NCBI RefSeq assembly: GCF_022758145.1
Contig: NZ_JAJVDH010000002.1
Span: 930,001 to 994,000 of the forward strand
Origin: Pontibacter vulgaris
Lineage (GTDB): Bacteria; Bacteroidota; Bacteroidia; Cytophagales; Hymenobacteraceae
Direction of reading: 5' to 3'
Length of the DNA stretch: 64,000 nucleotides
Below are positions 37,094-53,586 of the stretch, in pieces. Every line of letters starts with the position of its first letter. Position 1 is the first letter of the stretch. The notes beneath the pieces were generated by a model. The model made no database searches. It worked only from the letters and a program-made list of their open reading frames with translations, and had not been told where the DNA came from. The translations under genes and the position numbers were made by a program.

Positions 37094-38152
37094 ATGATTA
37101 CGATCGCCATAGGTTTATCCCTTATACTTTTATTAGTAATCCTCTTCCTGTTGTTCAGGATAGGTACGCTGGCTTCTATATTTAGAGGTTCTACACAGCG
37201 TGCAGCAGGTACTACTAAAACCAGTAACCGAGTAAACAGTACACTTCTTCTGCTTTTCCTTATACTTGGTGGAGCAGCCTTTGTATGGTCTTTTGCTGAT
37301 TCATGGGATGATATGAATCAGCCCTTGGCTTCTGTACATGGTGAGTGGACTGACAGCCTGTTCTGGACAACGATGATTATCATCGGTATTGTGTTTGTTA
37401 TTACACAAGTGTTGCTATTTTTCTATTCTTTTAAATATCAGCACAAGGACAACAAGAGAGCTTACTATTATCCGCATAACAACAAACTGGAAATTGTTTG
37501 GACAATGATTCCGGCTGTAGTAATGGCTATACTTGTATTTGCGGGTTGGAAAACCTGGACTAAGATTACAAGTGCAGCTCCTGAAGATGCAGTTGTAGTA
37601 GAAGTGATGGGTAAGCAGTTTAACTGGATGGTTCGTTACCCAGGACCAGATGGAAAACTGGGAAGCGCTAAGTATACGCTTATCGACGCTACAAACGAAT
37701 TTGGTGTAGATTTCAGCGATCCAAATTCTAAGGACGACTTTATGCCGCGTGAATTACACGTGCCTAAAGGTAAGCCAGTTCTTTTGAAGATTCGCTCAAG
37801 AGATGTTATCCATAGTGTTTTCATGCCTCACTTCCGTTTGAAAATGGATGCTGTACCAGGTATGCCAACTAAGTTCTGGTTTGTTCCGACTAAAACTACT
37901 GCTGAAATGCAGAATGAGACTGGTAACCCAGACTTCAAGTATGAGTTAGCTTGTACTGAAATTTGTGGACGTGGTCACTTCGCAATGCGCTTTATAGTTG
38001 TTGTAGATGAGCCGGAAGATTATGAGGCTTGGTTAGCAACACAGCAGCCATTCATTGAGCAGAATCCTGATCTGATGGCTAAGTTTACGAATAAAGCTCA
38101 AGCTTCATTAGAAGTTGAGAAGAAGTCGGAAACAACAGAAGTAGTAAAATAA
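37094..38152 (+). CDS. coxB: Cytochrome c oxidase subunit II
   Basis: 352 residues. There are three hydrophobic segments (about 3-21, 50-66 and 91-111), one more than the usual two, followed by the cupredoxin domain. The CuA ligands are all visible: H240 (DVIHSVF), C287, E289 and C291 (CTEIC), H295 and M298. There is no C-terminal cytochrome c domain, so it is aa3- rather than caa3-type; ActA or ActE can deliver electrons directly. 24 bases downstream of actF, same operon. Confidence 0.96.
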   Translation: MITIAIGLSLILLLVILFLLFRIGTLASIFRGSTQRAAGTTKTSNRVNSTLLLLFLILGGAAFVWSFADSWDDMNQPLASVHGEWTDSLFWTTMIIIGIVFVITQVLLFFYSFKYQHKDNKRAYYYPHNNKLEIVWTMIPAVVMAILVFAGWKTWTKITSAAPEDAVVVEVMGKQFNWMVRYPGPDGKLGSAKYTLIDATNEFGVDFSDPNSKDDFMPRELHVPKGKPVLLKIRSRDVIHSVFMPHFRLKMDAVPGMPTKFWFVPTKTTAEMQNETGNPDFKYELACTEICGRGHFAMRFIVVVDEPEDYEAWLATQQPFIEQNPDLMAKFTNKAQASLEVEKKSETTEVVK

Positions 38153-38179
38153 GAAATTAGCATTTAAATACTGTTGACA

Positions 38180-40006
38180 ATGTCTAGTACTGATATTTCT
38201 ATTCATAAGGAAGTGCACCATGCTCACGACGAGCATGATCACCACCATGACCTAAATTTCTTTGAGAAGTACATCTTTAGCCAGGATCATAAAGTAATTG
38301 CAAAACAATTCTTGTTTGCAGGTATATTCTGGGGCTTTGTTGGTGGCTTCCTTTCAATTCTTTTCCGTTTGCAACTTGGATGGCCAGAAGCTACTTTCAG
38401 CTTCTTAGAACCACTTTTAGGTAAATGGGTTGAAAACGGTAAACTGGATCCTGAGTTTTATCTTGCATTGGTTACGATGCACGGTACAATCATGGTATTC
38501 TTCGTATTAACGGCTGGTTTGAGCGGTACTTTCTCAAACTTTCTGATTCCACTACAGATTGGTGCCCGTGATATGGCATCAGGCTTTATGAACATGCTGT
38601 CTTTCTGGATCTTCTTCCTATCCAGCATTGTTATGTTTGCCTCATTATTCATTGAAACCGGACCTGCAGGTGGTGGTTGGACAGTTTATCCGCCGCTTAG
38701 TGCTTTACCACAGGCGATATCGGGATCTGGATTGGGTATGACGCTTTGGTTAGTAAGTATGGCATTGTTTATCGTTTCTCAGTTATTGGGTGGCGTAAAC
38801 TATATCACTACAGTTATTAACCTGAGAACAAAAGGTATGTCTATGACGAAGCTTCCGCTTACGATCTGGGCATTCTTCCTGACTGCAATCCTTGGTCTAC
38901 TTTCGTTCCCGGTTCTTTTCTCAGCAGCACTATTACTGATCTTTGACCGTAGTTTTGGTACTAGCTTCTACTTATCAGATATATTTATTGCTGGTGAGGC
39001 TTTATCAAACACAGGTGGTAGCCCTATCCTGTTCCAGCACTTATTCTGGTTCCTGGGTCACCCTGAAGTATACATCGTTATTCTGCCTACTTTTGGTATC
39101 GTATCAGAGGTAATTGCAACCAACTCACGTAAGCCAATCTTTGGTTACAGAGCCATGATCGGTTCAATGTTGGGTATCTCGTTGCTATCATTCGTAGTAT
39201 GGGCTCACCATATGTTCGTTACAGGTATGAACCCTTTCCTGGGTTCTGTATTTATGTTCCTGACATTAATCATTGCAGTTCCATCGGCTGTGAAAGTATT
39301 TAACTGGATTGCTACTTTATGGAGAGGTAATATCCGTTTCACTTCTGCTATGATGTTTGCTGTAGCATTTGTTTCATTGTTTATCTCAGGTGGTTTAACA
39401 GGTATCATACTTGGTAACTCTTCTTTGGATATTCAATTACATGATACTTATTTCGTAATTGCTCACTTCCACCTTGTAATGGGTGCAGCGGCTTTCTTTG
39501 GTATGTTCTGTGGTATTTACCACTGGTTCCCTAAGATGTTCGGTCGTATGATGGATGAGAAATTAGGTTATGTTCACTTCTGGTTGACATTTACGGCTGT
39601 TTACTTGGTGTTTATGCCAATGCACTACATTGGTATCGCTGGTTTCCCTAGAAGATATTATTCATGGACTGGTTTTGAAGCATTCAACACGTTTACAGAT
39701 CTGAATACTTTCATCAGTTTAGCTGCGATCTTAGGTTTTACAGCTCAGTTTATCTTCCTGTTTAACTTTATATACAGCATCTTTAAAGGACGCCGTGCAA
39801 CTGAGAACCCTTGGCACTCTAACACAATTGAGTGGACTACTCCTGTAAATCCAGGACATGGTAACTGGCCAGGCGAGATACCAACTGTTTACAGATGGCC
39901 TTATGACTATAGCAAGCCAGGAGCTGCTGAAGACTTTATACCACAAACAGTACCTTTCTCTCAAACGCAGTCATCTAACCTGCCACAGGAGAAAGATTTC
40001 GAATAA
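38180..40006 (+). CDS. coxA: Cytochrome c oxidase subunit I
   Basis: 608 residues from the ATG at 38180; a TTG two codons earlier is possible but unneeded. It is a twelve-helix heme-copper oxidase core with HPEVYIVILPTFG (CuB ligand and A-family loop), WAHHMF (the two CuB histidines) and HFHLVMG (heme ligands). The YIVILPTFG region carries the cross-linked Tyr and Glu pattern of A-type enzymes. It reduces oxygen and pumps protons. The N-terminal 25 residues are strikingly His/Asp-rich (HKEVHHAHDEHDHHHD), which is unusual for subunit I. Confidence 0.97.
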   Translation: MSSTDISIHKEVHHAHDEHDHHHDLNFFEKYIFSQDHKVIAKQFLFAGIFWGFVGGFLSILFRLQLGWPEATFSFLEPLLGKWVENGKLDPEFYLALVTMHGTIMVFFVLTAGLSGTFSNFLIPLQIGARDMASGFMNMLSFWIFFLSSIVMFASLFIETGPAGGGWTVYPPLSALPQAISGSGLGMTLWLVSMALFIVSQLLGGVNYITTVINLRTKGMSMTKLPLTIWAFFLTAILGLLSFPVLFSAALLLIFDRSFGTSFYLSDIFIAGEALSNTGGSPILFQHLFWFLGHPEVYIVILPTFGIVSEVIATNSRKPIFGYRAMIGSMLGISLLSFVVWAHHMFVTGMNPFLGSVFMFLTLIIAVPSAVKVFNWIATLWRGNIRFTSAMMFAVAFVSLFISGGLTGIILGNSSLDIQLHDTYFVIAHFHLVMGAAAFFGMFCGIYHWFPKMFGRMMDEKLGYVHFWLTFTAVYLVFMPMHYIGIAGFPRRYYSWTGFEAFNTFTDLNTFISLAAILGFTAQFIFLFNFIYSIFKGRRATENPWHSNTIEWTTPVNPGHGNWPGEIPTVYRWPYDYSKPGAAEDFIPQTVPFSQTQSSNLPQEKDFE

Positions 40007-40013
40007 AGTATAA

Positions 40014-41090
40014 ATGACTTCAAAGTCTTTACAATACAAAAAATTTAAAAATATTGGGGTGCTTACTGTACTCGCCGTATACTTTTTAATATTGGTTGGA
40101 GGAATCGTGCGAAGCACAGGATCAGGAATGGGATGCCCGGACTGGCCTAAGTGTTTTGGCAGTTGGGTTCCTCCAACTGATGTTAAACAACTACCCGAAA
40201 ATTACCTTGAAGTATATAAAGGGAAGAGGATAGAAAAGAATAAGAAGCTTGCTTCATTTCTTGATAAAGCAGGTTTTGAAAAATTAGCTGAAAATATATT
40301 TTCTCATCCAAGTCAGTACATTGAAACAGAATTCAATGTTACTAAAACCTGGATAGAATATGTTAACAGGCTGGTAGGTGTATTGATTGGCATCTTTATT
40401 TTTCTGACAGTACTCTACGCTATCCCTTTTCTAAAAGGAGATAAAGTAATTTTTTACCTGTCATTTATCAGTTTTATCCTGGTAGGATTTCAGGGTTGGC
40501 TGGGTTCGATAGTTGTGTCAACTAATTTGTTGCCTCAAACTATAACAATACATATGGCACTGGCACTTGTGATTGTAGCCATGTTGCAATATGCTGTAAT
40601 TCGTTCCCAATCAGAAAGTATAAAGAAACGACTTACATTTAATAGCAGATTAAATGCGCTGTTTATACTTATTACACTAGTTACTTTTCTGCAGATTATA
40701 CTAGGGACGCAGGTAAGAGAAGATATTGATATTGTAGCATTCAGTATGAATGGAGGTAACAGGGACTTGTGGATTGATAAATTAGGATTAGATTTTTACA
40801 TACACCGTTCTTTCTCCATATTTATACTAGCGCTTAATGCTTACGTAGCATACCTGATTTACAAAGTGAAGGATAGCACGCTTACCAGGTTTGCTAACCT
40901 GATGATGGTGATGTTGGGATTGGAAATTGTTTTCGGTGTAGTAATGGCGTATTTTGCTATCCCACCAATCATGCAGCCGCTTCACTTAACATTAGGTACT
41001 TTGCTGTTTGGTATGCAGTTCTTGATTTTAGTTTTTTACAATTATGCCTCTTTTAAGGCAATTGATAAGCCAGTAGTAGTTACAAACTAA
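40014..41090 (+). CDS. ctaA: Heme A synthase (COX15/CtaA family)
   Basis: 358 residues with about eight helices. The N-terminus carries GGIVRSTGSGMGCPDWPKCFGSW, the standard start of the family, with a Cys pair (C in GMGCP and PKCFG). Further on are histidines in membrane helices (TIHMALALV, YIHRSFSIF and LHLTLGTL) that bind the two hemes. It oxidises the C8 methyl of heme O to give heme A for the adjacent oxidase. It starts 7 bases after coxA and its stop overlaps the ctaB start by one base. Confidence 0.95.
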   Translation: MTSKSLQYKKFKNIGVLTVLAVYFLILVGGIVRSTGSGMGCPDWPKCFGSWVPPTDVKQLPENYLEVYKGKRIEKNKKLASFLDKAGFEKLAENIFSHPSQYIETEFNVTKTWIEYVNRLVGVLIGIFIFLTVLYAIPFLKGDKVIFYLSFISFILVGFQGWLGSIVVSTNLLPQTITIHMALALVIVAMLQYAVIRSQSESIKKRLTFNSRLNALFILITLVTFLQIILGTQVREDIDIVAFSMNGGNRDLWIDKLGLDFYIHRSFSIFILALNAYVAYLIYKVKDSTLTRFANLMMVMLGLEIVFGVVMAYFAIPPIMQPLHLTLGTLLFGMQFLILVFYNYASFKAIDKPVVVTN

Positions 41091-41992
41091 TGTTTACGCA
41101 AAAGTCCACAGCGCTACTGCCAATACATATTATGGCACATCAGGCAGTATTATATTTCAGACTGTTAAAATTTAGGTTAAGTGCCGTAGTTGCTTTTTCC
41201 AGTGCAATAGGTTTTGTGTTAGGCCATCCGAAAGCTTCTGCTCTTGAGATAGCTCTTGTTACACTTGGAGGGTTGTTAGTTACAGGTTCTGCCAATATCA
41301 TCAATCAGATAATAGAGAAAGACCTGGATAAAATGATGAAGCGAACGTCTAAAAGACCGCTTCCAACAGGTGAACTAAGTGTAAAGCAAGCTGCCATTTA
41401 TTGTGTTCTGATTGGGGTAACAGGTTTAAGTATACTTGCAGTTTACTTCAATGTACTTTCAGCTATACTTGCTTTTATCTCACTAGTGCTTTATGGGTTT
41501 GTTTACACGCCTTTAAAGCGCATCAGCCCTATTTGTGTTTTTGTCGGAGCTATACCGGGTGGTTTGCCGCCCCTTATTGGATGGGTTGCGGCTACAGGAA
41601 CATTAGGCGTAGAAGCTTGGATACTTTTCGGAATTCAGTTTATATGGCAGTTCCCGCATTTCTGGGCTATTGCCTGGGTGCTAGATGATGATTATAAGAA
41701 AGCAGGGTTTAAAATGCTGCCAATGGCTGGCGGTAAAAACTTAAAAACGGCTTTCCAGATTATGATTTATACTTTGGTGCTGATTCCTTTAAGCTTATTA
41801 CCATTACAGTTTGGCATGACAGGTACAACTTCTGCATTTGTAGCAGTTGTATGTGGTGTCCTTTTTCTTGCCCAAACATTTTATCTTATGCGTACCTGCT
41901 CTAAAAAAGCTGCCATGAGTATCATGTTTGGTTCATTTTTATATTTACCTATCGTTCAGATAGCGTTTGTTTTAGATAAAGTAACTCTTTGA
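41090..41992 (+). CDS. ctaB: Protoheme IX farnesyltransferase (heme O synthase)
   Basis: 300 residues, UbiA prenyltransferase superfamily with about eight or nine helices. The first aspartate-rich motif is NIINQIIEKDLDKMMKRTSKRPLPTG and the second is in WVLDDDYKKAGFKMLP. It adds a farnesyl chain to heme B, the step before CtaA. The start could be the ATG at 41090, which overlaps the ctaA stop, or MAHQAV fourteen codons later. Confidence 0.95.
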   Translation: MFTQKSTALLPIHIMAHQAVLYFRLLKFRLSAVVAFSSAIGFVLGHPKASALEIALVTLGGLLVTGSANIINQIIEKDLDKMMKRTSKRPLPTGELSVKQAAIYCVLIGVTGLSILAVYFNVLSAILAFISLVLYGFVYTPLKRISPICVFVGAIPGGLPPLIGWVAATGTLGVEAWILFGIQFIWQFPHFWAIAWVLDDDYKKAGFKMLPMAGGKNLKTAFQIMIYTLVLIPLSLLPLQFGMTGTTSAFVAVVCGVLFLAQTFYLMRTCSKKAAMSIMFGSFLYLPIVQIAFVLDKVTL

Positions 41993-41994
41993 TT

Positions 41995-42579
41995 ATGGTT
42001 TCAAGATCAATAGAAGATAGCAATAACTCAGCGGGAGCTCACCCACTTAAATTCTCGTTATGGTTGATTATTATAAGTATTATTATGATGTTTGCAGCCT
42101 TTACGAGTGCCTACATAGTAAGGCGCGAAGAGGGCAACTGGCTGGAGTTTGATTTACCAAACATGTTGTTGATTAATACTGCTGTAATTGTTTTAAGCAG
42201 TATTACCATGCAATTAGCCTACAATGCAGCTAAAACAGACAGCCTGTCAAGGTTGAAAGTTATGCTGGTTGCGACAGCTGTTTTAGGTGTTGTTTTCCTG
42301 TTAGGACAGTGGAATGCATGGGGCGAACTGGTAGCTAATAATGTATACTTCGGTGGAGTGTCAAGTAACCCTTCAGGCTCCTTTCTGTATGTATTAACTG
42401 GTGTACACGGTTTTCACCTTATTACAGGGCTTATTTTTCTGGTACTTGTATTAAGGTCTAGTTTTAAATTCAAAGTACACTCTAAAAATACATTGCGTAT
42501 ACAGTTGTGTACCATCTATTGGCACTTTCTGGGTGGCCTTTGGATATATTTGTATATATTTTTAAAGTTGAATCACTAA
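41995..42579 (+). CDS. Heme-copper oxidase subunit III-type protein, short form
   Basis: 194 residues from the ATG at 41995, just after the ctaB stop; a TTG at 41989 would overlap it. Five membrane helices are predicted; the pattern FLYVLTGVHGFHLITGLIFL and YWHFLGGLWIYLYIFL is the family signature of the last helices of subunit III. It lacks the two N-terminal helices of seven-helix forms. A second, longer subunit III gene follows directly. Whether both are in the enzyme together cannot be read from sequence. Confidence 0.88.
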   Translation: MVSRSIEDSNNSAGAHPLKFSLWLIIISIIMMFAAFTSAYIVRREEGNWLEFDLPNMLLINTAVIVLSSITMQLAYNAAKTDSLSRLKVMLVATAVLGVVFLLGQWNAWGELVANNVYFGGVSSNPSGSFLYVLTGVHGFHLITGLIFLVLVLRSSFKFKVHSKNTLRIQLCTIYWHFLGGLWIYLYIFLKLNH

Positions 42580-42604
42580 ACACGTTTTTTTCAATACATA
42601 TACT

Positions 42605-43351
42605 ATGTCTACTTCAACTACGCTGGAAGCACCTAACTCAGGTACATGGGATGGCGGCAACGAGCCATTAAAGGCGAGCTATGGAAAACTTATGATGTGG
42701 TTTTTCCTGCTATCTGATGCATTTACATTCGGCTCCTTTTTAATTGTTTATGGTTTATCTCGCCATAAGCACCTGCCTTATACAGGCGAAGCGGATGCCT
42801 TCACCTTTTCTACGCAGTGGTGGCCAATACCAGAAAAAGTATTTAATGCTTTCCCTGGTTTCCATGGAGTAGATCTTCCGTTGGCTTTTGTGGCTTTGAT
42901 GACGATGATTCTGATTCTAAGCTCGGTAACAATGGTGCTTTCTGTTGAGGCCGGCCATCGTATGGATAAAGAAGCTGTTCAGAAGTGGTTACTTTGGACT
43001 ATCCTTTTCGGAAGCATATTCCTTGGTTGCCAGGCATGGGAGTGGTCACACTTTATTACTGGTACTGAAGAAGGTATGTTGCTAGCAGATGGAACCAGAG
43101 TATTTGGAGCTAACCTGACTATTAACCAGTACGGTCCTCCGTTGTTTGCAGACCTGTTCTTCTTCATAACAGGTTTCCACGGAACACACGTATTGAGTGG
43201 AGTTGTACTGCTTATTATGATCTTCATTAACACTGTAAATGGTGTTTACCAGAAGCGCGGTCACTACGAAATGGTTGAGAAAGTTGGTCTTTACTGGCAC
43301 TTTGTAGACCTTGTATGGGTATTCGTGTTTACATTCTTCTACCTGATCTAA
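42605..43351 (+). CDS. coxC: Cytochrome c oxidase subunit III
   Basis: 248 residues, about six helices. Family stretches are KLMMWFFLLSDAFTFGSFL (helix 1, with the Asp of the family), FGSIFLGCQAWEWSHFI, FFITGFHGTHVLSGVVLL and LYWHFVDLVWVFVFTFFYL. Subunit III stabilises subunit I and helps proton uptake. It is separated by 25 bases from the short paralog and precedes the subunit IV gene. Confidence 0.93.
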   Translation: MSTSTTLEAPNSGTWDGGNEPLKASYGKLMMWFFLLSDAFTFGSFLIVYGLSRHKHLPYTGEADAFTFSTQWWPIPEKVFNAFPGFHGVDLPLAFVALMTMILILSSVTMVLSVEAGHRMDKEAVQKWLLWTILFGSIFLGCQAWEWSHFITGTEEGMLLADGTRVFGANLTINQYGPPLFADLFFFITGFHGTHVLSGVVLLIMIFINTVNGVYQKRGHYEMVEKVGLYWHFVDLVWVFVFTFFYLI

Positions 43352-43378
43352 CAGTAGTTAATTTTAAAAATATATCCG

Positions 43379-43400
43379 GTACCCGACTTATTCCGGGTAC
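43379..43400 (+). other. Hairpin inside the cox operon
   Basis: GTACCCG (43379-43385) and CGGGTAC (43394-43400) form a 7-bp stem with an 8-base loop. No T run follows, so it is not a simple terminator. It could mark mRNA processing or stability between coxC and the subunit IV gene. Confidence 0.45.
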
Positions 43401-43423
43401 TGTAGCTAAAGAAATAGAATACT

Positions 43424-43771
43424 ATGGCAATGCATTCTGATCATTCTCACGATTTCACTCAAACTGGTGAGATCCCTAAAGCTCAGACCAAAGCAATCTG
43501 GAGAACCTTTATGATTCTTGTTGGTCTTACGGCACTTGAGTTCGTGTTCGCATTCTTTATGGAAGCTAGCACGTTGCGTAACTCTATCTTTATTGTGCTT
43601 ACAATTTTCAAAGCATTTTACATTGTAGCTGAGTTTATGCACTTAAAGCATGAGACAAAAGCTTTAATCTGGGCAATCTTAATTCCCATGGCCCTTGTTA
43701 TCTGGTTAATGGTTGCTTTGATTTCTGAAGGTAGTTACTACTTTGATTCGGTAACGAACTACTTTAAATAG
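43424..43771 (+). CDS. Cytochrome c oxidase subunit IV family protein
   Basis: 115 residues with three helices (LVGLTALEFVFAFFM, SIFIVLTIFKAFYIVAEFM and LIWAILIPMALVIWLMVALI). The FKAFYIVAEFMHLKHE signature is that of the small bacterial subunit IV (CyoD/CtaF type). The N-terminus MAMHSDHSHDF has three closely spaced histidines. It probably supports assembly of the CuB centre. Same operon, 72 bases after coxC and 11 before the SCO gene. Confidence 0.88.
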   Translation: MAMHSDHSHDFTQTGEIPKAQTKAIWRTFMILVGLTALEFVFAFFMEASTLRNSIFIVLTIFKAFYIVAEFMHLKHETKALIWAILIPMALVIWLMVALISEGSYYFDSVTNYFK

Positions 43772-43782
43772 TATATCTTATC

Positions 43783-44451
43783 ATGAGTACAAAAAAGGCA
43801 CTAATATTAGGTATCCTACTATTAGTGCCTCTTCTTGTTTTTATGTTTTTAGGTAAATTTGGGGAACACCATTTTACGCTAAAAACATACTTCCCCGAAG
43901 TGGATGACAGTGGAGAGGCGTTAATTGATACAAAAGGTGATACGATTTTTCACCAGGTTCCATCTTTTAAATTTGTTTCGCAGCAAGGGCAATCTATAAC
44001 CGAAAAGCAATTGGCCGGTGGCATTTATGTTGCTAACTTTTTCTTTGCTACTTGCCCGGATGTCTGCAAGAAAATGTCATCGCAGATGGTAAGAGTGCAG
44101 GAAGCATTTGAGAACAATCCTTCTGTAAAGCTTGTTTCCTATACAGTAAACCCTGAGCATGATTCTGTTGAAGTGCTGGCTAACTATGCAGCAATGTATG
44201 GTGCCATGCCCGGGAAATGGTTTTTCCTGACAGGCGAGCGCGAAAAGATTTATGAGCTGGCTAAAAAGGGATTTTATTTACCGGTGCAGCAGGTAGCAGG
44301 CCAGCAGGACTTTATACACAGCGAAAAGTTTATGCTGGTAGATAAGGAGCAACATGTGCGCGGAATTTACGATGGGACTGACCCTGCAGAAGTTGACCGG
44401 TTAATAACAGAGATAAACGTATTACTTGATGGATACAGTAAAAGTAAATAG
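43783..44451 (+). CDS. SCO1/SenC family copper chaperone
   Basis: 222 residues. The membrane anchor is at about 6-23 (ALILGILLLVPLLVFMFLG). The thioredoxin-like domain has the copper site C91-P-D-V-C95 and the third ligand H179 in FIHSEKFMLVD. SCO proteins deliver or reduce copper for the CuA centre of subunit II. The position directly after the oxidase genes fits. The 3' end overlaps the start of the DUF420 gene. Confidence 0.94.
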   Translation: MSTKKALILGILLLVPLLVFMFLGKFGEHHFTLKTYFPEVDDSGEALIDTKGDTIFHQVPSFKFVSQQGQSITEKQLAGGIYVANFFFATCPDVCKKMSSQMVRVQEAFENNPSVKLVSYTVNPEHDSVEVLANYAAMYGAMPGKWFFLTGEREKIYELAKKGFYLPVQQVAGQQDFIHSEKFMLVDKEQHVRGIYDGTDPAEVDRLITEINVLLDGYSKSK

Positions 44452-44983
44452 TGCTTCATCAGCAAAGGATAAAAAGTTTTTAACTTTGATTGCTGTGCTT
44501 TCTGTTGCAATTCCAGTAGTTGTAGCGCTATTATTCTTCATGCAGAAAGAAGGTGAGAGTAAAGCAGATGTATCTTTTTTACCCGCTTTTCATGCTATAC
44601 TTAACAGCCTTACAGCTTGTGCGCTTTTAGTAGGTTATTATAATATCCGGAAAGGTAAGGTTCGTAACCACAGAGCAGCTATGCTTACTGCTTTTGGCTT
44701 ATCTGCCATATTCCTTATATCATATGTAACGTACCACTTTCTTGGTGAAAGAACTATTTACGGAGGTGATGGTGCCTTAAAGTATATCTATTACTTTATA
44801 CTTTTAACTCACATCGTACTGGCTGTAGTTATTGTACCACTGGTTTTACTTTCAGTATATTTTGGTATTACAGACCAGTTAGCCCGTCACAGGCGCGTGT
44901 CCCGCTGGACTTTCCCGATCTGGATGTATGTTGCAGTAACCGGTGTTTTGGTTTACCTTTTAATTTCTCCGTATTATAGTTAA
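44429..44983 (+). CDS. DUF420 membrane protein (oxidase assembly, CtaM-like)
   Basis: 184 residues from the ATG at 44429; it overlaps the SCO gene by 23 bases. Five helices are predicted, with FLPAFHAILNSLTACALLVGYYNIRKG, then NHRAAMLTAFGLSAIFLISYVTYHF and LLTHIVLAVVIVPLVLLSV. The conserved His residues in helices are typical of DUF420. Related proteins in Gram-positive bacteria (CtaM) are needed to mature aa3-type oxidase. The link here is by family and by operon. Confidence 0.9.
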   Translation: MDTVKVNSASSAKDKKFLTLIAVLSVAIPVVVALLFFMQKEGESKADVSFLPAFHAILNSLTACALLVGYYNIRKGKVRNHRAAMLTAFGLSAIFLISYVTYHFLGERTIYGGDGALKYIYYFILLTHIVLAVVIVPLVLLSVYFGITDQLARHRRVSRWTFPIWMYVAVTGVLVYLLISPYYS

Positions 44984-45001
44984 TAAACAGACGTAACTGT
45001 G

Positions 45002-45268
45002 ATGAAGAAGAAAATAATACTGATGGCTTCTATGCTGGTTTTCGTACTGATATTGTCAGTGGGGAATGCCTACAGCCAATGTGCTATGTGCCGTGCCACC
45101 GTTGAATCTAACGTAGGTACAGGCAGCAAAGAGCCCGAATCAGAAGTTGGTTCAGGCTTAAATACCGGAATACTTTACCTGATGGTTATTCCATATCTGC
45201 TGGTTGGTACGGTAGGGTTCTTATGGTATAAGAGCAGTCGTAAAAAGAAAGATGGCGCAACCATCTAA
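45002..45268 (+). CDS. Small exported CxxC membrane protein in the cox operon
   Basis: 88 residues from the ATG at 45002 (a GTG one codon earlier is possible). A signal peptide (LMASMLVFVLILSVGNAYSQ) is followed at once by CAMCRATVES, so the mature chain would begin with a Cys pair on the outer face. A short polar stretch rich in Gly, Ser and Glu leads to a second helix (ILYLMVIPYLLVGTVGFLWY) and a basic tail. I know of similar small genes beside DUF420 in bacteroidetal cox operons but no assigned function. It overlaps the DUF983 gene by 17 bases. Confidence 0.8.
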   Translation: MKKKIILMASMLVFVLILSVGNAYSQCAMCRATVESNVGTGSKEPESEVGSGLNTGILYLMVIPYLLVGTVGFLWYKSSRKKKDGATI

Positions 45269-45638
45269 GCTGGGAGCCATAGTAGGGGCAAAGTGCCCGC
45301 GATGCCGTAAGGGGGATGTCTTTACACATTCTGCATTTAATCTGACAAAGTTTGATAAGATGTATGAGCAGTGCCCCGTTTGTGGTTTCCATTATGAAGT
45401 AGAGGTTGGTTTTTTCTGGGGAGCCATGTATGTCAGCTATGGCTTTTCAGTAGCTATTGTGCTACTGGTTGGCATTTTATTATATTATTTGGCTAACGAT
45501 CCTCCCACCTGGGTTTATGTAACAGTAGTTGCAGTTGTTGTTCTGCTCTTCACGCCGGTCCTTTTCAGGTATGCCAGAATTCTGATGCTCCATTTTTTTG
45601 GTGGGGTAGATTATGATCCTGGCTACAACAAACGTTAA
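45252..45638 (+). CDS. DUF983 family zinc-finger membrane protein
   Basis: 128 residues. An N-terminal CPRCRKG...CPVCG zinc ribbon (about 15-18 and 41-44) is followed by two helices, FFWGAMYVSYGFSVAIVLLVGILL and WVYVTVVAVVVLLFTPVLF, then RYARILMLHFFGGVDYDP. DUF983 genes are often beside cox genes in both Alphaproteobacteria and Bacteroidota, so an assembly role is inferred. It is the last clear member of the respiratory run. Confidence 0.88.
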   Translation: MAQPSKLGAIVGAKCPRCRKGDVFTHSAFNLTKFDKMYEQCPVCGFHYEVEVGFFWGAMYVSYGFSVAIVLLVGILLYYLANDPPTWVYVTVVAVVVLLFTPVLFRYARILMLHFFGGVDYDPGYNKR

Positions 45639-45703
45639 TTACATCCTGAATCAATAGCTGTTATCTTTCGTTTTCTTTAAATTCGTGGATAAACTCATCT
45701 GCT

Positions 45704-48700
45704 TTGAATAGGAAGATAATACTTGCCCTTCTCTTTTTTATTTCGTTGCTGTGCTTTTCAGCACTGGCATGGCTGCATTTTAATGTGCCCTCACAGGCAG
45801 TTAATCTTAAAAGCCAGCAGAAGGAGTTATCCCTGATAACTTCCAGAATAGACAGCGCGCTTGCCCACGCTCATCAAAGTGCAGTAATTATTGGTAATCA
45901 GTTAGCTAATGATACTGTTTCTTTTTCCAGGTTACTGAAGCAGACCCATTATCCATCTTTTGTATATAGACAGGATACGCTGGTTTTCTGGTCTGATCAT
46001 ACCATTATACCTGATCTTGATTTCCCACCTGATGTTATAAAACCTGCCATCGTAAATAATAGCTATGGCGTATTTATAGTTGTACCACATCAGGTAAAGG
46101 CCTATAAAATTTTAATCTACATACCGCTTCAGGTAAATTACCAGATCAGCAACAGTTACCTTACTTCAGGGCTGCAGGAGAATATATTTGGTAATGTGCA
46201 GGCGAGTCTGGTACTGGAGCCAGTGAAAGGTTTGCCTCAAATAAAAAGTCCTGCTGGTGAATTTCTATTTGCATTAGAATTCGCTGAAGTAAAAACCCAT
46301 GCTGTTTCCAATAACCTTTTGCTGGCGCTTTTCATTTTTGGGTCGCTTCTGTTTATTGTTTTCAGCATAGCATGTGCCCGCACACTGTTTAAAAAGGGCA
46401 AGTATACTTTAGGTGTAGTACTGTTGCTTATACTATTAGGAGGTTTCAGATTAGCTTTATTATTCCTGAATCTGCCCTTTGCACTTGTAGAGCTAAACCT
46501 GTTTGACCCTTCATTATATGCAGCTTCTTTCTGGTCGCCATCTATAGGTGATCTAGCATTGAATATGCTGTTGCTCTTGGTTGTGGCCTGGGCTATACTT
46601 TACTTATTCAAGAAACAAAATGTATTAGCAGAACTTAAAGGAATTACAGTAAAAAATAGCCGCCTTTTACAGGCAGGGTGCTTTGCAATATTTTACATGC
46701 TGCTATTCCTGCTATTCGGTTTCTACCATGGCATTTACCATAACTCGCCTCTGGTACTCGATATTACCCAATCGCTTGATTTGTCAAAGTATAAGATCGT
46801 GATTTTAGGAGTGATGTTTCTGCATACCATTGTGTTGGGCATTTTCTGCTACATATTGGTAAGTATAATTTCCTTCTTACTAAAAAAAGAGCAGTTCTCG
46901 TGGCCTTATAAGCTTTTAGCGGGTATAGCGATCTTACTGCTTTTAGTTTTTGTTTTTTTTGCAAAAGAGCTGCTTCTGCTTGTATTGGGTGGAACAATCT
47001 TTTGGCTGGTGGTGATAATTTCGGCGCAATACCGGCAGGAGGTTAGTTTTCCGTACCGGACTTATTTCTTTGTGTTTTTAATTATTACCGTTAGTGCATT
47101 TACAGGATCAATTGCCTTGTTTGAGCATTACCAGAACGAAGTAAAAGTATACAAGCAGAAATTTGCGTTTAACCTGTTGCAAGATAATGATGTTTTGGGC
47201 GAGTACCTGCTGGAAGATGTTGCCAAAAAGATAGCGAAAGATGCCCTGATACAGGCTAAAATGAAAGGCCCTTATGTAGATGCTGCCTTTATCAAGCTTA
47301 AAATCTCCAAACAGTACCTGCGGCATTACTTTGACAAGTATGAAACGAACGTGTTTCTTTATGACAGTGAAGGCAGAACACTGGAGAGCTCAGACACAAC
47401 AGCAACATCCTTGCAAGAGCTTAAGAGTAAGTATGACACGCCGGCTACACGAACAGAGCGCAAAAACCTTTTCCTGGTTAAAGACCCTGGGCGCTATAAT
47501 GCCCGCACATACTTTAAGCTGATTGAAATACCGATAAGTACGCGCCAGAAAGGTACTATAGTATTACAGTTAAGCCTCAAACGTTTGCTGCCAAATAGTG
47601 TGGTGCCTGAGCTGCTCGTAGACCAGAAGCAAGACCAGCATTTTAGAATAGATATGCTTAGTTATGCTATTTATGATGGAAAGCAGCTGAAGTATAGCGA
47701 AGGCGAGTATGACTATGCCACCAACATGGATCCTGTTCACATTGATCATGCAGAGTTTTACAGGGATGGACATAACCAGGGCGATTATCATCATTTTGGC
47801 GTTAAAGACGAAGATGGGAAAGTACTTGTAGTTACTACCAAGAAGTATGGCGCAAGTGAAATACTCTCTAACTTCTCATTTCTTTTCCTTGTATTTACGG
47901 CCGGGCTCATACTGCTGGCAATTTTAATCCTGGTATTCCGCCGAAGTTATATCCGGGAGTTCAGGCCAAATTTCAGCACCAAAATACAGCTCTTTCTAAA
48001 TTTCGGGATTTTGCTGCCGCTTTTGCTGGTAAGTATAACAACAGCCGGTCTGGTTACTGCTTCCTACAAAAGGGATTTAATGATGTCGTATGAGAGGCGT
48101 GGAGAAGCAATACAGGAGAATATGGCAACGGCATTGGCTAACGGTATTTTACAGCGCCAGCTCTGGCTTCAGCGCCGTATTGTGGATGTGGCGGCTATTT
48201 CTGAAGCTGATGTAAACCTCTATGATCGTAACGGCAGGTTACTTGTTACCAGCCAGCCATTGATATTTGAAGCCGGGCTTTTATCTAAACTCGTCAATCC
48301 CGAAGCTATTGCTGCTATTTCGGAAAGGCAGGCTTTGCGTGTATTGCTCGAAGAACAAGCCGGGAGTTTAAAATTTAACGCTTTATACTTGCCATTACGC
48401 AACGAAGCTGCCGCCGGTGAGTTGGTGGGGTATATTGGTATTCCATTCTTCGATTCTGAAAAGCAACTGGACCTGAAGCTGATTGAGCTGATTACAACCA
48501 CGATGAATATTTTTACCGTGATGTTTATCGTGTTCATTGTGCTTACATTTTTTGCCTCGCGTGCGCTTACTGTTCCGCTACGTCTGCTGGCCGATAAGCT
48601 TAAACGCACATCGCTTACCGGTAAGAATGAAATGCTGGCTTATGCAAGTGCCGATGAGATCGGGATGCTGGTGAACGAGTATAACCGCATGCTGCTGACG

Positions 48701-49411
48701 CTGGAAAAGAACAAGGAAGAGCTGGCTACGAAAGAAAAAGAGGCTGCATGGCGCGAAATGGCCAGGCAGGTAGCGCATGAGATAAAGAACCCACTGACGC
48801 CCATGAAGCTTTCGTTGCAGTATTTACAGAAAGCTATTGCCGAAAAAAAACCGAATACAGAGCAACTAATCGATAAAATCTCTCATACGCTGATTACGCA
48901 GATTAATATACTGAGCGATATAGCCACTTCTTTTTCTGACTTTACAACCATGCCCGAGCCTAAAGCAGAACTGATAGACGTGGCGGCTGCTTTGCGTAAA
49001 TCTTCTGACCTGCACAACGACCCTGCAACGGCGACCTTAATTTCTAAAATACCAAACGAGCAAGTAATGGTAATGGCCGATGAGAATTTGCTGGTTCGTA
49101 CGTTCAATAATTTGCTGCTGAACGCTATACAGGCAGTGCCTGCCAGCCGGAAACCAAAGTTATTGGTAATGCTTCAGGTAGAGCAGGACAAAACTGTTGT
49201 GATATCTATCAAGGATAACGGCAGCGGCATACCTGCCGAAATTCAGCAGAAAGTATTTATACCAAACTTCAGCACCAAGTATACAGGTTCGGGCATTGGG
49301 TTAGCGGTTGCTAAAAAAGGAATCGAAACTGCGGGCGGCCAAATCTGGTTTGAAACGGAAGAAGGTAAGGGAACCACATTCTTTATTTCGTTACCGTTGG
49401 CTGCGCCATGA
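45704..49411 (+). CDS. NtrY-like membrane sensor histidine kinase
   Basis: 1,235 residues, long for a kinase. An N-terminal helix and a periplasmic domain (about 30-200) are followed by a block of about seven or eight helices (200-475), a second extracytoplasmic sensor region (about 490-735), a helix pair and a second sensor segment, then HAMP (about 945-1000). The H-box is VAHEIKNPLTPMKLSLQYLQ with H1025, N-box NNLLLNAIQA, G1 DNGSGIP and G2 GSGIGLAVAKKG. Only TTG at 45704 fits as start, with no ATG upstream in frame. There is no response regulator beside it. The 3' end overlaps the next gene by ATGA. Confidence 0.9.
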   Translation: MNRKIILALLFFISLLCFSALAWLHFNVPSQAVNLKSQQKELSLITSRIDSALAHAHQSAVIIGNQLANDTVSFSRLLKQTHYPSFVYRQDTLVFWSDHTIIPDLDFPPDVIKPAIVNNSYGVFIVVPHQVKAYKILIYIPLQVNYQISNSYLTSGLQENIFGNVQASLVLEPVKGLPQIKSPAGEFLFALEFAEVKTHAVSNNLLLALFIFGSLLFIVFSIACARTLFKKGKYTLGVVLLLILLGGFRLALLFLNLPFALVELNLFDPSLYAASFWSPSIGDLALNMLLLLVVAWAILYLFKKQNVLAELKGITVKNSRLLQAGCFAIFYMLLFLLFGFYHGIYHNSPLVLDITQSLDLSKYKIVILGVMFLHTIVLGIFCYILVSIISFLLKKEQFSWPYKLLAGIAILLLLVFVFFAKELLLLVLGGTIFWLVVIISAQYRQEVSFPYRTYFFVFLIITVSAFTGSIALFEHYQNEVKVYKQKFAFNLLQDNDVLGEYLLEDVAKKIAKDALIQAKMKGPYVDAAFIKLKISKQYLRHYFDKYETNVFLYDSEGRTLESSDTTATSLQELKSKYDTPATRTERKNLFLVKDPGRYNARTYFKLIEIPISTRQKGTIVLQLSLKRLLPNSVVPELLVDQKQDQHFRIDMLSYAIYDGKQLKYSEGEYDYATNMDPVHIDHAEFYRDGHNQGDYHHFGVKDEDGKVLVVTTKKYGASEILSNFSFLFLVFTAGLILLAILILVFRRSYIREFRPNFSTKIQLFLNFGILLPLLLVSITTAGLVTASYKRDLMMSYERRGEAIQENMATALANGILQRQLWLQRRIVDVAAISEADVNLYDRNGRLLVTSQPLIFEAGLLSKLVNPEAIAAISERQALRVLLEEQAGSLKFNALYLPLRNEAAAGELVGYIGIPFFDSEKQLDLKLIELITTTMNIFTVMFIVFIVLTFFASRALTVPLRLLADKLKRTSLTGKNEMLAYASADEIGMLVNEYNRMLLTLEKNKEELATKEKEAAWREMARQVAHEIKNPLTPMKLSLQYLQKAIAEKKPNTEQLIDKISHTLITQINILSDIATSFSDFTTMPEPKAELIDVAAALRKSSDLHNDPATATLISKIPNEQVMVMADENLLVRTFNNLLLNAIQAVPASRKPKLLVMLQVEQDKTVVISIKDNGSGIPAEIQQKVFIPNFSTKYTGSGIGLAVAKKGIETAGGQIWFETEEGKGTTFFISLPLAAP

Positions 49412-52400
49412 GCAGGCAGTTATACTTGCTAGTGCTTTTTCTGTTGCTGAGCATTCCGTTGCTGGCGCAAGTACCCGTAAATAACAAGCGTTGCAAATGG
49501 CTGCGCATCACATCCGATCCGGTTATACTTGATTCTCTTACGCTGCTGCCATCCTCGGTCAGCTTTTATCATCCTAAAAAAGAGCAGTTTACCTTCGATT
49601 ACAACTATAGCCGAAACGAGTTCAGGCTTACTAACTTTCCACAACCGAATTATACTATACTTGATACCTTAGGCTCTTTGCAGCCGATACCGGACTCGGT
49701 GCTTGTTTGCTTTCGGGTGCTGCCGCTTAATATTACCAGGCCTGCTTTTCGCCGTGATATTGCCAAGCTGGAGATGAACTCGTTTCAGAAAGGCTTTTAC
49801 CAGGAAGACATAAATACCCGCGAAGAAATTTTCCGGACGCCGGGACTGAACAAAACAGGAAGTATAAGCCGGGGCATCTCGTTTGGTAATACCCAGAATG
49901 TATTTGTGAACTCGGCCCTGAACCTGCAACTCGACGGCAAACTGACCGACGACATAAGTATAACCGCTGCCATAACCGACCAGAATATCCCGTTTCAGCC
50001 GGAAGGAAATACCCAGCAGCTACAGGAGTTTGACAGGGTTTACATTACGCTGAAGCATAAACTCTGGCAGCTCACGGCCGGCGATGTGGTGTTGCGCAGT
50101 AAGCCCTCATACTTTATGCAATTTTACAAGAACGTGCAGGGCGGCGCTTTCGAAACTACAGTGGGCTCTAAGCCTGACAGGCAAGGAGTAACTACAGTTG
50201 CAGCCTCTGTATCGAAGGGTAAGTTTGCTTCGCAAAGTATTGTAGCGCAGGAAGGCGTGCTGGGTCCGTACCGCCTTCGCGGGCCAAACAACGAGCGCTT
50301 TATTATTGTACTTGCCAACTCGGAGCGTGTTTTCTTGGATGGCCGCTTACTGACGCGGGGTTACGATTACGATTATACGATTGACTATAACCAGGCAGAG
50401 ATAACTTTTACCACGCGCCACGTAATCACCAAAAATACCCGCCTGAAAGTAGATTTTGAATACTCTGATCAGAATTATAGCCGCGGCATTTATAACCTGA
50501 GCCATTACCAGAACCTGGGAAAACTGAAAGTATACGGTAACTACTATAACGAATCTGACAACCCCAATAATCTTATAAATCTGGACCTGCAGGACGAAGA
50601 AAAGCGCTTGCTGGCAAGTATAGGCGATAGCCTGAACCTGGCCGTTGCCCCCGGCGCCGATAGCGTAGCTTTTGACCCAAGCCAGGTATTATACGCCAGG
50701 CGCGATACTTTTTTTAACGATGGGCAGCAAGGCGCCAGCATATTTGTATACTCTACAAATCCTGATTCTGCTTTTTACAATGTGCGTTTCTCTGAAGTGG
50801 GTGCTAATAAAGGCGATTATGTGCTGGATAACTCTACCGTGAACGGACGTGTGTATAAGTGGGTAGCGCCGCTGAATGGTGTGCCTCAGGGTAATTACCT
50901 GCCGGTGCGTATACTTCCAACCCCTCGGAAAAAGCAATTGGTAACGGTAGGTGGTAACTATGAAGTGCTGAAAGGAGTGAATTTTTTCCTAGAAGGTGCC
51001 GCTTCTCAGAATGATCTGAACCGGTTCTCAAAACTAGATTCGCAGGATGATAATGGCAAAGCAGTGCGTGTAGGCTATGTAGTGCAGGACAGGGAACTGC
51101 CATTGCTGGGCAAGTATAAACTGAACAGCACGCTTAACTATGAGTATACCGACAGGCATTTTGCGCCCATTGACCGTTACCGCCCCATTGAGTTTGACCG
51201 CGACTGGAGCCTTACAAATACTGAAAAACCCGCCGAAGATCATATCTTGAATTTTTCTTTTGGTGCTGTGCGCGATGCTGCAAACCTTGTCAATTACCGC
51301 ATCAGCCACCGCTCTCGTGCAGAGCAGGTAGATGGCGTGCAGCATTACCTGGATGTGTTTAAAAGTATAGGAAAACTGGAGCTCCGGAACAATTTTTTTA
51401 TGCTGAACAGCTCGCAGCGCGACCGTAGGTCAGAATGGTACCGTGGTGAAGTAGGTGCAAAGTATAAAACCAAGCTTTTTGCCCCCGGCTATAGTTACCG
51501 CTTTGATAAAAATAAGATAAAAGCCCTGAACAGCGATTCTGTTACTGGCTCGGCCATGTACTTTGATGAGCACCTGGTTTTTGTGGAAAGCAACGATACC
51601 AGCCGCGTTAAATTCAGGGTAGATTATAGCCACCGCACTGACCTGAGGCCAACTGTAAACGGCACCTTAGGCAACCGCGAAATAGGGCAGACCTACAACG
51701 GTTTGCTGCAAACCCGCTACGGCAAAGAAAGCGATCTTGCATTGCAGCTAACCTATCGCAAACTGGAACTGGCCACCGCACTAAACGAAGAAACAGTGCA
51801 GTCGCGCATAGATTGGAACACCGGTTTCCTGGATGGCAGTTTCCGCTCTGAAATGACGTATGCTGTAGGTACAGGGCGCGAACTGAAACGTATTTTCATT
51901 TTCAGGGAAACGCTGCCGGGGCAGGGCACGCACTACCTCCGCGATGGTGGCAACCCCAACGACCTCAACGATTACCTGGAAGCACAAACTATAGACCAGC
52001 GCCGCTACATCAAGATCTTCCTGCCCACCGACGAGTATATTAACGCCTATACTAACAACTTCAGTTACAGGCTTAACAGCAGCACGCCCCGCAGCTGGCG
52101 TAGCCAAAAAAACTGGAAAGGATTTGCCTCACGTTTTGCCGTACTCACTTTCGTAAGCATCGATAAAAAGACAACTGACGATAACCTGCAAAACCGTTTT
52201 AACCCGTTCATCGATGATTTTGAAGATGAATTCCTGCTGTCGCTCGCGAAAACTCTGCGTAACACGGTATACTTTAACCGCAGCAATCCTAACCATGGTT
52301 TGGAGTATACTTTTCAGCAGAACCAGCAGAAATCGCTTTTAACAAATGGCACCGAAACCCGTAACCTGGGCAGCCATGTACTTACAGGGCGATTAAACCT

Positions 52401-52899
52401 GAATGAAGTGTTGAGCTCGAAACTAACCGTGGGGCAGAACGTGCGCGAGAACCGTTCTAATTTTCTGGAGTCGAAGAACTTCCGCATAGAATCGAAAGAG
52501 CTGACGCCCGAACTTGCTTACCAACCCAACGCAAAGCTCCGCTTTACAAGCACCTACCTGTTTGCTTTGCGACAAAATGAGCTGGCTGCTACCGACGAAC
52601 AACAGCAGGAAGGTACCTTCCACGAGTTAGGGCTGGAAACGAAACTGAGCCAGGTAAGCAAACGAACTATAACCGGCAACCTCCGCTATGTGAACATCGG
52701 GTTTAAGGGCGATATGAACTCTTATGTTGGCTACGAGATCCTGAATGCGCTTCGGCCGGGTAACAACATAACCTGGTCTCTTAACCTACAGCAACGCCTG
52801 AGTAACGGACTGAACATCTCGATGAACTATGATGGCCGCAAAGCCAACGGTATAGGTGCTGTGCATACCGGAAGAACACAGGTTTCGGTGTTGTTTTAA
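49408..52899 (+). CDS. Very large predicted outer-membrane barrel protein
   Basis: 1,163 residues with a signal peptide (LLVLFLLLSIPLLAQ). Residues about 150-230 (SISRGISFGNTQNVFVNSALNLQLDG... AAITDQNIPFQPEGNTQQL) and about 280-360 (GPYRLRG..., VFLDGRLLTRGYDYDYTIDYNQAEITFT) are soluble beta modules that I associate with large bacteroidetal outer-membrane and SprA-like proteins. From about 480 on, amphipathic strands repeat to the end, finishing RTQVSVLF with a terminal Phe. A barrel of twenty or more strands is plausible. Start codon lies within the stop of the kinase gene, so expression is coupled. Function unknown. Confidence 0.75.
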   Translation: MSRQLYLLVLFLLLSIPLLAQVPVNNKRCKWLRITSDPVILDSLTLLPSSVSFYHPKKEQFTFDYNYSRNEFRLTNFPQPNYTILDTLGSLQPIPDSVLVCFRVLPLNITRPAFRRDIAKLEMNSFQKGFYQEDINTREEIFRTPGLNKTGSISRGISFGNTQNVFVNSALNLQLDGKLTDDISITAAITDQNIPFQPEGNTQQLQEFDRVYITLKHKLWQLTAGDVVLRSKPSYFMQFYKNVQGGAFETTVGSKPDRQGVTTVAASVSKGKFASQSIVAQEGVLGPYRLRGPNNERFIIVLANSERVFLDGRLLTRGYDYDYTIDYNQAEITFTTRHVITKNTRLKVDFEYSDQNYSRGIYNLSHYQNLGKLKVYGNYYNESDNPNNLINLDLQDEEKRLLASIGDSLNLAVAPGADSVAFDPSQVLYARRDTFFNDGQQGASIFVYSTNPDSAFYNVRFSEVGANKGDYVLDNSTVNGRVYKWVAPLNGVPQGNYLPVRILPTPRKKQLVTVGGNYEVLKGVNFFLEGAASQNDLNRFSKLDSQDDNGKAVRVGYVVQDRELPLLGKYKLNSTLNYEYTDRHFAPIDRYRPIEFDRDWSLTNTEKPAEDHILNFSFGAVRDAANLVNYRISHRSRAEQVDGVQHYLDVFKSIGKLELRNNFFMLNSSQRDRRSEWYRGEVGAKYKTKLFAPGYSYRFDKNKIKALNSDSVTGSAMYFDEHLVFVESNDTSRVKFRVDYSHRTDLRPTVNGTLGNREIGQTYNGLLQTRYGKESDLALQLTYRKLELATALNEETVQSRIDWNTGFLDGSFRSEMTYAVGTGRELKRIFIFRETLPGQGTHYLRDGGNPNDLNDYLEAQTIDQRRYIKIFLPTDEYINAYTNNFSYRLNSSTPRSWRSQKNWKGFASRFAVLTFVSIDKKTTDDNLQNRFNPFIDDFEDEFLLSLAKTLRNTVYFNRSNPNHGLEYTFQQNQQKSLLTNGTETRNLGSHVLTGRLNLNEVLSSKLTVGQNVRENRSNFLESKNFRIESKELTPELAYQPNAKLRFTSTYLFALRQNELAATDEQQQEGTFHELGLETKLSQVSKRTITGNLRYVNIGFKGDMNSYVGYEILNALRPGNNITWSLNLQQRLSNGLNISMNYDGRKANGIGAVHTGRTQVSVLF

Positions 52900-53130
52900 G
52901 AGGGCGTGCTCTTGGCTACTTTGTTACATTAATAATTAAAATCTTATTTGAAGTCGAGCTATCAAAAGGGGCATTTCATAGCTTTCTGCTATATTGTATA
53001 TAAGCCAAAAGTATAGCAGCTGAGAGCAATATTAAGCTCAATAGTAACTAATATTATTACAAAGGTAGTATAGCTAGGAGAGTTATTCTTGTTAACAGAT
53101 AACTATGTAACCAAAAAATGTCTTAGGAAA
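52900..53130. other. AT-rich intergenic stretch, no gene seen
   Basis: 230 bases rich in A and T, with AGTATA at about 53011 and 53067. A TAGCTTTC near 52978 is one base from the -7 consensus but has no good -33 partner. No terminator is evident after the large barrel gene. Confidence 0.4.
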
Positions 53131-53586
53131 ATGGAAAAATCAAATTATACTACTTTTATACTAATGTTGATTTGCTCAGCAATTTCAATGTATATCACCA
53201 TGTATTTTAACACCTATGAGTTTAATCACATATATTTTAGCTGGACTAGAATGTATATGACTTTCATTGGTATCAGCGGAATGGCGATTATAATGTTTTT
53301 GTTCATGAAAAAGATGTACAATAACAGAATGAAAAATGCAGCAATAGTTATAGGCAGCCTTTTACTTATGTCCATTTCGACTTATTTAGTTCGACGGCAG
53401 ATACCGATAGATGAAGTTAAATGGATGAGAGCGATGATCCCACATCATTCGATTGCAATTTTAACTAGTAAACGAGCCGATTTGAAAGACCCAGAAGTAA
53501 AAAAATTAGCTGAGGAAATTATCAAAGCGCAGGAAAGAGAGATAGCAGAGATGAAAAAAATGATTGAACGATTGGAAAATGAATAA
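53131..53586 (+). CDS. DUF305 membrane protein
   Basis: 151 residues from the ATG at 53131 (MEKSNYTTFILML), preferred over a TTG 14 codons earlier. Three helices (FILMLICSAISMYITMYF, MTFIGISGMAIIMFLFM and AAIVIGSLLLMSISTYLV) precede a C-terminal DUF305-type helical part with WMRAMIPHHSIAIL, then SKRADLKDPEVKKLAEEII and an amphipathic coiled-coil-like end, EIAEMKKMIERL. The MIPHH motif is the family core and probably binds metal; many DUF305 proteins lie near copper-resistance genes. GC content is lower than the flanks. Confidence 0.8.
   Translation: MEKSNYTTFILMLICSAISMYITMYFNTYEFNHIYFSWTRMYMTFIGISGMAIIMFLFMKKMYNNRMKNAAIVIGSLLLMSISTYLVRRQIPIDEVKWMRAMIPHHSIAILTSKRADLKDPEVKKLAEEIIKAQEREIAEMKKMIERLENE

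Follow-up and report, generated by a model that had tools for sequence, protein, structure and literature searches.

Among described systems, the NtrYX two-component pathway is one of the closest to the kinase considered here. In the accessible part of one paper, NtrYX is described as controlling the cell envelope in Rhodobacter, and proteobacterial NtrYX as also being tied to low-oxygen bioenergetics (PMC7240162). In beta- and gamma-proteobacteria, PlrP is presented, in the accessible sections of its report, as a periplasmic third component that controls an NtrY-type kinase and is always co-localised with it (PMC13001219). On the barrel side, the nearest candidate counterpart is SprA, the translocon of the type 9 secretion system (T9SS), whose barrel has 36 strands according to the accessible text of PMC10994853. 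Here we compare these systems with a gene pair in a 64,000-nucleotide stretch of Pontibacter vulgaris (Bacteroidota, Cytophagales, Hymenobacteraceae; contig NZ_JAJVDH010000002.1, positions 930,001 to 994,000), hereafter the window. On its + strand, a called open reading frame (ORF) for a sensor histidine kinase (45704..49411, TTG start, 1,235 aa) is followed by one for a giant outer-membrane beta-barrel protein (OMP; 49408..52899, ATG start, 1,163 aa). The reading that we favour, to which we assign as a whole a probability of about 40%, is that the kinase is an envelope sensor at the tail of a cytochrome c oxidase cluster, is co-produced with a SprA-like barrel that it probably monitors or supports, and signals to an unlinked NtrX-like regulator, L031.

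The two genes share the bases ATGA (49408..49411, + strand), in which the TGA stop of the kinase overlaps the ATG start of the OMP. An earlier note on this DNA, made from the sequence alone, had described a kinase of 1,235 residues and a barrel of 1,163 residues joined in this way, and the ORFs bear it out. The same note reported no response regulator, and indeed all 47 receiver-domain matches in the genome lie outside the window (C2:930001-994000). The conservation of the pair was assessed in an order set of 148 relatives, in a phylum set obtained as an even draw of 296 genomes, and in the named loci, limited to the 80 best-scoring among at least 570 relatives. In the first search, the OMP was present in 125 and the first 929 residues of the kinase in 136 of the 148 relatives. 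Where a genome had both genes, they lay side by side in the same direction in 50 of 50 genomes of the genus and 39 of 39 other genomes of the family, which indicates that the pairing is more than chance. In the other families of the order (58 genomes), 35 genomes had both genes, 11 only the kinase and one (G144) only the OMP; the pair was adjacent in 12 of the 35. A script reading of the best 80 named loci found the pair adjacent in 61, the nearest being from Pontibacter, with 72–77% OMP identity. The script readings took the longest frame as the ORF, a simple rule that missed the OMP of L134 and L136 though it had been matched earlier.

Across the phylum set the OMP was found in 174 of 296 genomes and the kinase profile in 54, the latter being a lower bound, as the fast-evolving N-terminal profile misses short or diverged kinases; 39 genomes had both, 135 the OMP alone and 15 the kinase alone. 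Some of the weak kinase-profile matches are long ORFs (1,240–1,415 aa) and others short (494–497 aa). The short frames of G324 and G273 match the profile solely in its membrane-proximal ectodomain, and likely represent kinase relatives without the N-terminal 750 residues. Both genes occur in 32 genomes outside the order, and in none of the 28 with listed places does the pair lie within 10 kb; the other four (G218, G307, G383 and G395) had no listed OMP place and were left uncounted. The gene pair is thus conserved in the family and in part of the order. The earlier note had named separation in most relatives as what would speak against its reading, and beyond the family the pair is indeed apart in 23 of 35 genomes of the other families and in all 28 checkable genomes outside the order. 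Nor is an obligate one-to-one sensor pair supported, with 135 of the 174 OMP genomes lacking a recognisable kinase of this kind and 11 genomes of other families of the order having the kinase without the OMP.

Adjacency of the genes is more constant than the exact 4-bp overlap, which even within the genus was seen in 18 of 29 readable loci; the overlap was present in 12 of 59 readable named loci and 5 of 17 readable order or family loci. Overlaps of this kind between stop and start codons are ordinary in operons. Promoter-like (19 against 13.3 expected from shuffling) and terminator-like matches (11 against 8.2) in 44900-53200 are near the shuffled expectation and decide nothing. In two Hymenobacter loci, L177 and L189, genes are inserted between the kinase and the OMP, with gaps of 1,682 and 2,027 bases. 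The OMP was also seen in records titled Rickettsiales (L203, which has the kinase and oxidase genes as well) and Bifidobacterium breve (L204), which are probably mislabelled or contaminated metagenome-assembled genomes.

The kinase has an intact catalytic core. HisKA (residues 1016-1073, 31.9 bits) and HATPase_c (1126-1233, 83.1 bits) exceed the Pfam cut-offs, and HAMP (951-1001) scores 18 bits, under its cut-off of 25. His1025 is invariant in 28 kinase sequences, and the ATP-binding motifs are conserved in the same 28. Within the spacer of about 15 residues between HAMP and HisKA no cytoplasmic PAS domain was matched up to E 1. Hydropathy analysis gives 11 peaks, one of which spans two modelled helices (400-419 and 422-445), for a total of about 12 transmembrane (TM) helices, which would leave the N-terminus and the kinase core both inside. 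The structure model (mean pLDDT 79.4) contains three predicted ectodomains, at approximately 31-200, 497-716 and 783-929. Hydropathy and model thus agree on large predicted periplasmic domains, and the two extracytoplasmic regions counted in the earlier note become three. The third of these (48050-48490, + strand; its C-terminal part at 48374..48490) is WalK/PDC-like in the predicted model, and the extracellular domain of WalK is its best structural match (Z 12.9 over 138 residues). The best NCBIfam match of the kinase is LIC_11548 (residues 931-1232, 178.3 bits), and the cut-offs of LIC_11548 and AtoS, 750 and 646 bits, are far above the scores of the kinase. LIC_11548, AtoS and WalK have no counterpart of its N-terminal 750 residues. 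Compared with NtrYX, the likeness consists of a membrane kinase with ectodomains, HAMP and a HisKA-HATPase core, together with an NtrX-like candidate regulator; the differences are the missing cytoplasmic PAS, the three ectodomains, the roughly 12 TM helices, and a regulator that is unlinked and in which a DNA-binding domain is undetected. The label "NtrY-like" therefore holds for the HAMP-HisKA-HATPase core and fails at the absent PAS, and by its sequence the kinase is not a canonical NtrY.

The earlier note had suggested a search for an orphan NtrX-type regulator elsewhere in the genome, and such a candidate was found. The genome encodes eight strong sigma-54 activators, one of which (L031, G000:C4:373813-374976, 388 aa) is highly conserved and unlinked to the kinase, combines a receiver with a sigma-54 AAA+ domain, and is flanked by a protein without a family and a Peptidase_M90 gene. 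It scores 433.9 bits against the NCBIfam model of NtrX, under the cut-off of 600, and covers model positions 3-371 of 452, so that the C-terminus is missing; another activator, L032, scores 295.1 bits. L031 was found in 136 of the 148 genomes of the order set, with 63–96% identity among orthologs compared with at most 46% for the listed paralogs. Twelve genomes were initially scored as lacking the kinase, two of which (G116 and G131) had the regulator; a renewed profile search recovered a diverged kinase of 1,168–1,173 aa in those two only. In the final table, kinase and regulator occur together in 136 genomes, the kinase alone in two, neither in ten, and the regulator alone in none. The two genes are accordingly co-inherited in the order: of the 138 genomes with the kinase 136 have the regulator, and of the 10 without the kinase none does. 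The two kinase-only genomes, G080 and G120, are assemblies 78% and 84% complete. Sigma-54 is retained in all ten genomes without kinase and regulator, and among 20 genomes tested only G080 lacked it in its assembly. L031 is a good candidate, as yet not a proven partner, and phosphotransfer from the kinase to L031 is what we infer.

No HTH family was detected in L031 up to E 1e-4. FlgR and CtcC are NtrC-family regulators without a DNA-binding domain, and the receiver and sigma-54 AAA+ domains of L031 recall FlgR, whose model it matches with 334.6 bits, under the cut-off of 750. The regulator frames measure about 385–420 aa in most of the order and often 455–480 aa in distant families of the phylum; the difference suggests that a C-terminal domain was lost. 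We also considered a regulator located beside the kinase where the OMP is apart. BLAST with the eight activators gave four distant partial matches (L069, L106, L115 and L159), and at the kinase loci read none of them is an adjacent full NtrC-type gene.

In the AlphaFold model of the OMP (44 sequences, mean pLDDT 81, pTM 0.66), a predicted N-terminal hydrophobic helix (residues 2-18) and a small beta domain (27-104) precede a barrel from about residue 147 to 1163. Between 147 and 1163 there are 37 strands of at least 10 residues, which is a count of modelled strands and not of barrel strands. A Foldseek search of the model against the PDB returned SprA in the top two places (E 1.1e-7 and 1.5e-7, TM-score 0.25), closely followed by other large barrels and by apolipoprotein B. 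By VIA, the SprA chains align over 618–733 residues, with model residues 142-1163 placed on SprA 132-2401 at an rmsd of about 9 Å, while the non-SprA rows listed align over at most 375 residues. A profile-profile comparison by hhalign gave one block of 97 columns aligned with SprA at OMP residues 282-386 (50251..50565, + strand), with P values of 3.4e-4, 9.5e-5 and 5.1e-5 when 44 sequences, 153 sequences and a 154-member cluster were used. The controls were weaker, at 0.029 and 0.11 for reversed and 0.14–0.84 for shuffled profiles, and 0.046 for the next best of 50 clusters. The OMP fold is thus predicted to resemble SprA: the OMP would be a giant single-chain barrel, aligned from first to last strand, and differs in having 1,163 aa, half the length of SprA (approximately 2,300 aa).

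The genuine SprA (TIGR04189) is encoded separately in the same genome (C3:1107393-1114304), and the OMP, when scanned with NCBIfam, had no TIGR04189 match up to E 1. SprA was found in 173 of 174 OMP genomes compared to 227 of 296 overall, the exception being G409. This co-occurrence has p = 0.011 by Fisher's exact test at the genus level, and an entire family without SprA (f36) confounds it. A role of the OMP as a strict T9SS component was rejected on the grounds that 54 of the 227 SprA genomes have no OMP and that G409 has the OMP without SprA. A 2,457-aa ORF nearby (4505-11878) was also considered as SprA and is instead an Ig/PKD protein that ends in a T9SS sorting domain; it was unmatched to the OMP by BLAST.

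Scans of the OMP with Pfam and NCBIfam gave no match above cut-off, so other named families were set aside, and the TonB plug and receptor Pfam domains were unmatched up to E 1, on which basis a TonB-dependent receptor or SusC was rejected. Searches of the PDB by sequence or profile returned no relative save a match to UreE at E 0.44. The OMP is also unnamed in the accessible parts of papers on the Bacteroidota BAM (PMC12611786) and on T9SS and gliding (PMC12635249). It represents a large uncharacterised barrel family, phylum-wide and unnamed by Pfam or NCBIfam. In one family (f25; G159, G239, G351, G405, G417 and G421), OMP matches start only at model position 92-118, and the small N-terminal domain seems to be missing there. 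The genes beside the OMP outside the order were rejected as a functional clue, as their content varies, with NUDIX, PfkB, IF-2B-type and RecO genes in some Bacteroidales and ExbB/ExbD or fumarate reductase genes in others.

The kinase-OMP pair forms the 3' tail of a cytochrome c oxidase cluster on the same strand (37094..45638, +), identified by family matches, a setting that the earlier note did not mention. The cluster contains COX2, COX1, CtaA, a UbiA-type (CtaB-like) gene, two COX3, COX4, SCO1, DUF420, an 89-aa ORF and DUF983, the last ending 65 bases before the kinase start. The 89-aa ORF (44999-45268, +) has no family match, and ORFs of about 80–92 aa occupy the same place in many named loci. 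When up to 3 kb upstream of the kinase was read, a COX, SCO or DUF420 gene was present at 60 of the 65 named loci that have a kinase, at 7 of the 8 family loci and at 9 of the 35 loci from other families; at five of the nine, the OMP is elsewhere or absent. No oxidase gene is in view at eight of the 12 adjacent pairs in other families. In two of these (L074 and L080) the contig begins inside the kinase and the linkage is unreadable, and in the remaining six (L069-L072, L077 and L079) the upstream region is readable and the pair sits away from oxidase genes, which means that the pair can persist when the neighbourhood changes. Neither the OMP nor oxidase genes accompany the kinase in 18 of the 35 other-family loci. 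An ancestral order of oxidase, kinase and OMP, broken many times, is the simplest history.

These results lead us to propose the following scenario. The kinase and the OMP would close the oxidase cluster and be translated as a coupled unit. The kinase may act as a constitutive inner-membrane envelope sensor, in which three periplasmic domains and the TM block feed HAMP and the kinase core, and would most likely signal to the unlinked NtrX-like L031. With the OMP joined to the kinase in this lineage, sensor and barrel would be made together, and the kinase probably monitors or supports the SprA-like barrel. We consider the barrel, or whatever crosses it, to be more probably a client of the sensed pathway, or co-regulated with it, than an indispensable part of the sensor, because kinase and OMP each often occur alone. 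The functional tie between kinase and barrel, and any transport by the barrel, are inferred. Several observations weigh against this scenario. The pair is apart in most other-family genomes and at every checkable place outside the order. A quickly built kinase tree (43 rows, long branches) requires 6 changes for kinase-OMP adjacency and also 6 for kinase-oxidase linkage, so the tie to the OMP is no firmer than that to the oxidase genes. Eight of the ten joint absences of kinase and regulator are in genomes of 1.1–1.6 Mb, only G094 and G144 being larger, and the regulator is common in phylum genomes without a recognised kinase (g58 of f26, for example). As regards the barrel, the TM-scores to SprA are low, the VIA Z-scores are higher for smaller barrels (AlgE, 17.4 over 281 residues) than for SprA (13.6–14.8), and the hhalign probability of the aligned block is only 38–67%.

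The same erosion of both linkages would be expected if the kinase and an unrelated housekeeping OMP merely shared a long operon, the overlap setting expression levels and having no functional meaning. This explanation, which we consider possible but somewhat doubtful, also accommodates the absence of the pair from the checkable genomes outside the order, the many OMPs that live without a kinase, the genes inserted in the two Hymenobacter loci, and an overlap that is common in general and unfixed even in the genus; it does not account well for adjacency in 89 of 89 genomes of the genus and family, or for the six genomes that keep the pair with the oxidase neighbourhood gone. Alternatively, the kinase could use its TM block and ectodomains to read oxidase assembly, redox state or oxygen, with the OMP as a passenger or an envelope output. 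Its position directly behind COX, SCO or DUF420 genes, the five oxidase-linked loci of other families in which the OMP is not adjacent, and the low-oxygen role of proteobacterial NtrYX in the accessible part of PMC7240162 agree with such a respiratory sensor, which we nevertheless find unlikely given the 18 loci in which the kinase has neither neighbour. The earlier note had raised the idea that the barrel is an outer part of the sensor, touching the kinase ectodomains across the periplasm and needed for signal perception. Coupling and equal copy number where the genes are adjacent, and the large ectodomains, are consistent with it. As a general role it is very improbable, since the OMP is missing from 11 other-family genomes of the order that have the kinase and from 15 of the 54 phylum genomes with the kinase, and a recognisable kinase is missing from 135 of the 174 with the OMP. 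The role of a monitored cargo, also raised in that note, or of a co-regulated client may apply instead. PlrP-PlrSR, as far as its report is accessible, offers a likeness of gene arrangement, with the gene for an envelope protein next to that for an NtrY-type kinase; PlrP is periplasmic, and here the protein is an outer-membrane barrel that is adjacent only sometimes.

An extension of our favoured scenario would make the OMP a second SprA-like translocon, of compact size, with a substrate of its own that it exports or assembles across the Bacteroidota outer membrane. In Cytophagales the coupled kinase would read this traffic, report to L031 and adjust the envelope to the capacity for respiration, with the oxidase genes in the same transcript. 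We offer it as a speculation that we find unlikely.

The kinase and the regulator each vary on a known kind. What would be new is a giant barrel like SprA at half its length. Our literature search, which left most subscription papers outside its reach, found none that joins a giant barrel, a multi-ectodomain kinase and an orphan NtrX-like regulator. Likewise, none was found that brings together NtrX, Cytophaga, a histidine kinase and an outer membrane protein, or a Hymenobacter sensor histidine kinase and a cytochrome c oxidase operon. To our knowledge, envelope-stress pathways are poorly known in Bacteroidota, and the pairing of kinase and regulator provides a ready genetic test of such a pathway in this phylum. 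Should the barrel prove to be a relative of SprA, giant barrels of the translocon type would exist in two kinds in Bacteroidota, and ideas on how the T9SS pore arose would become testable.

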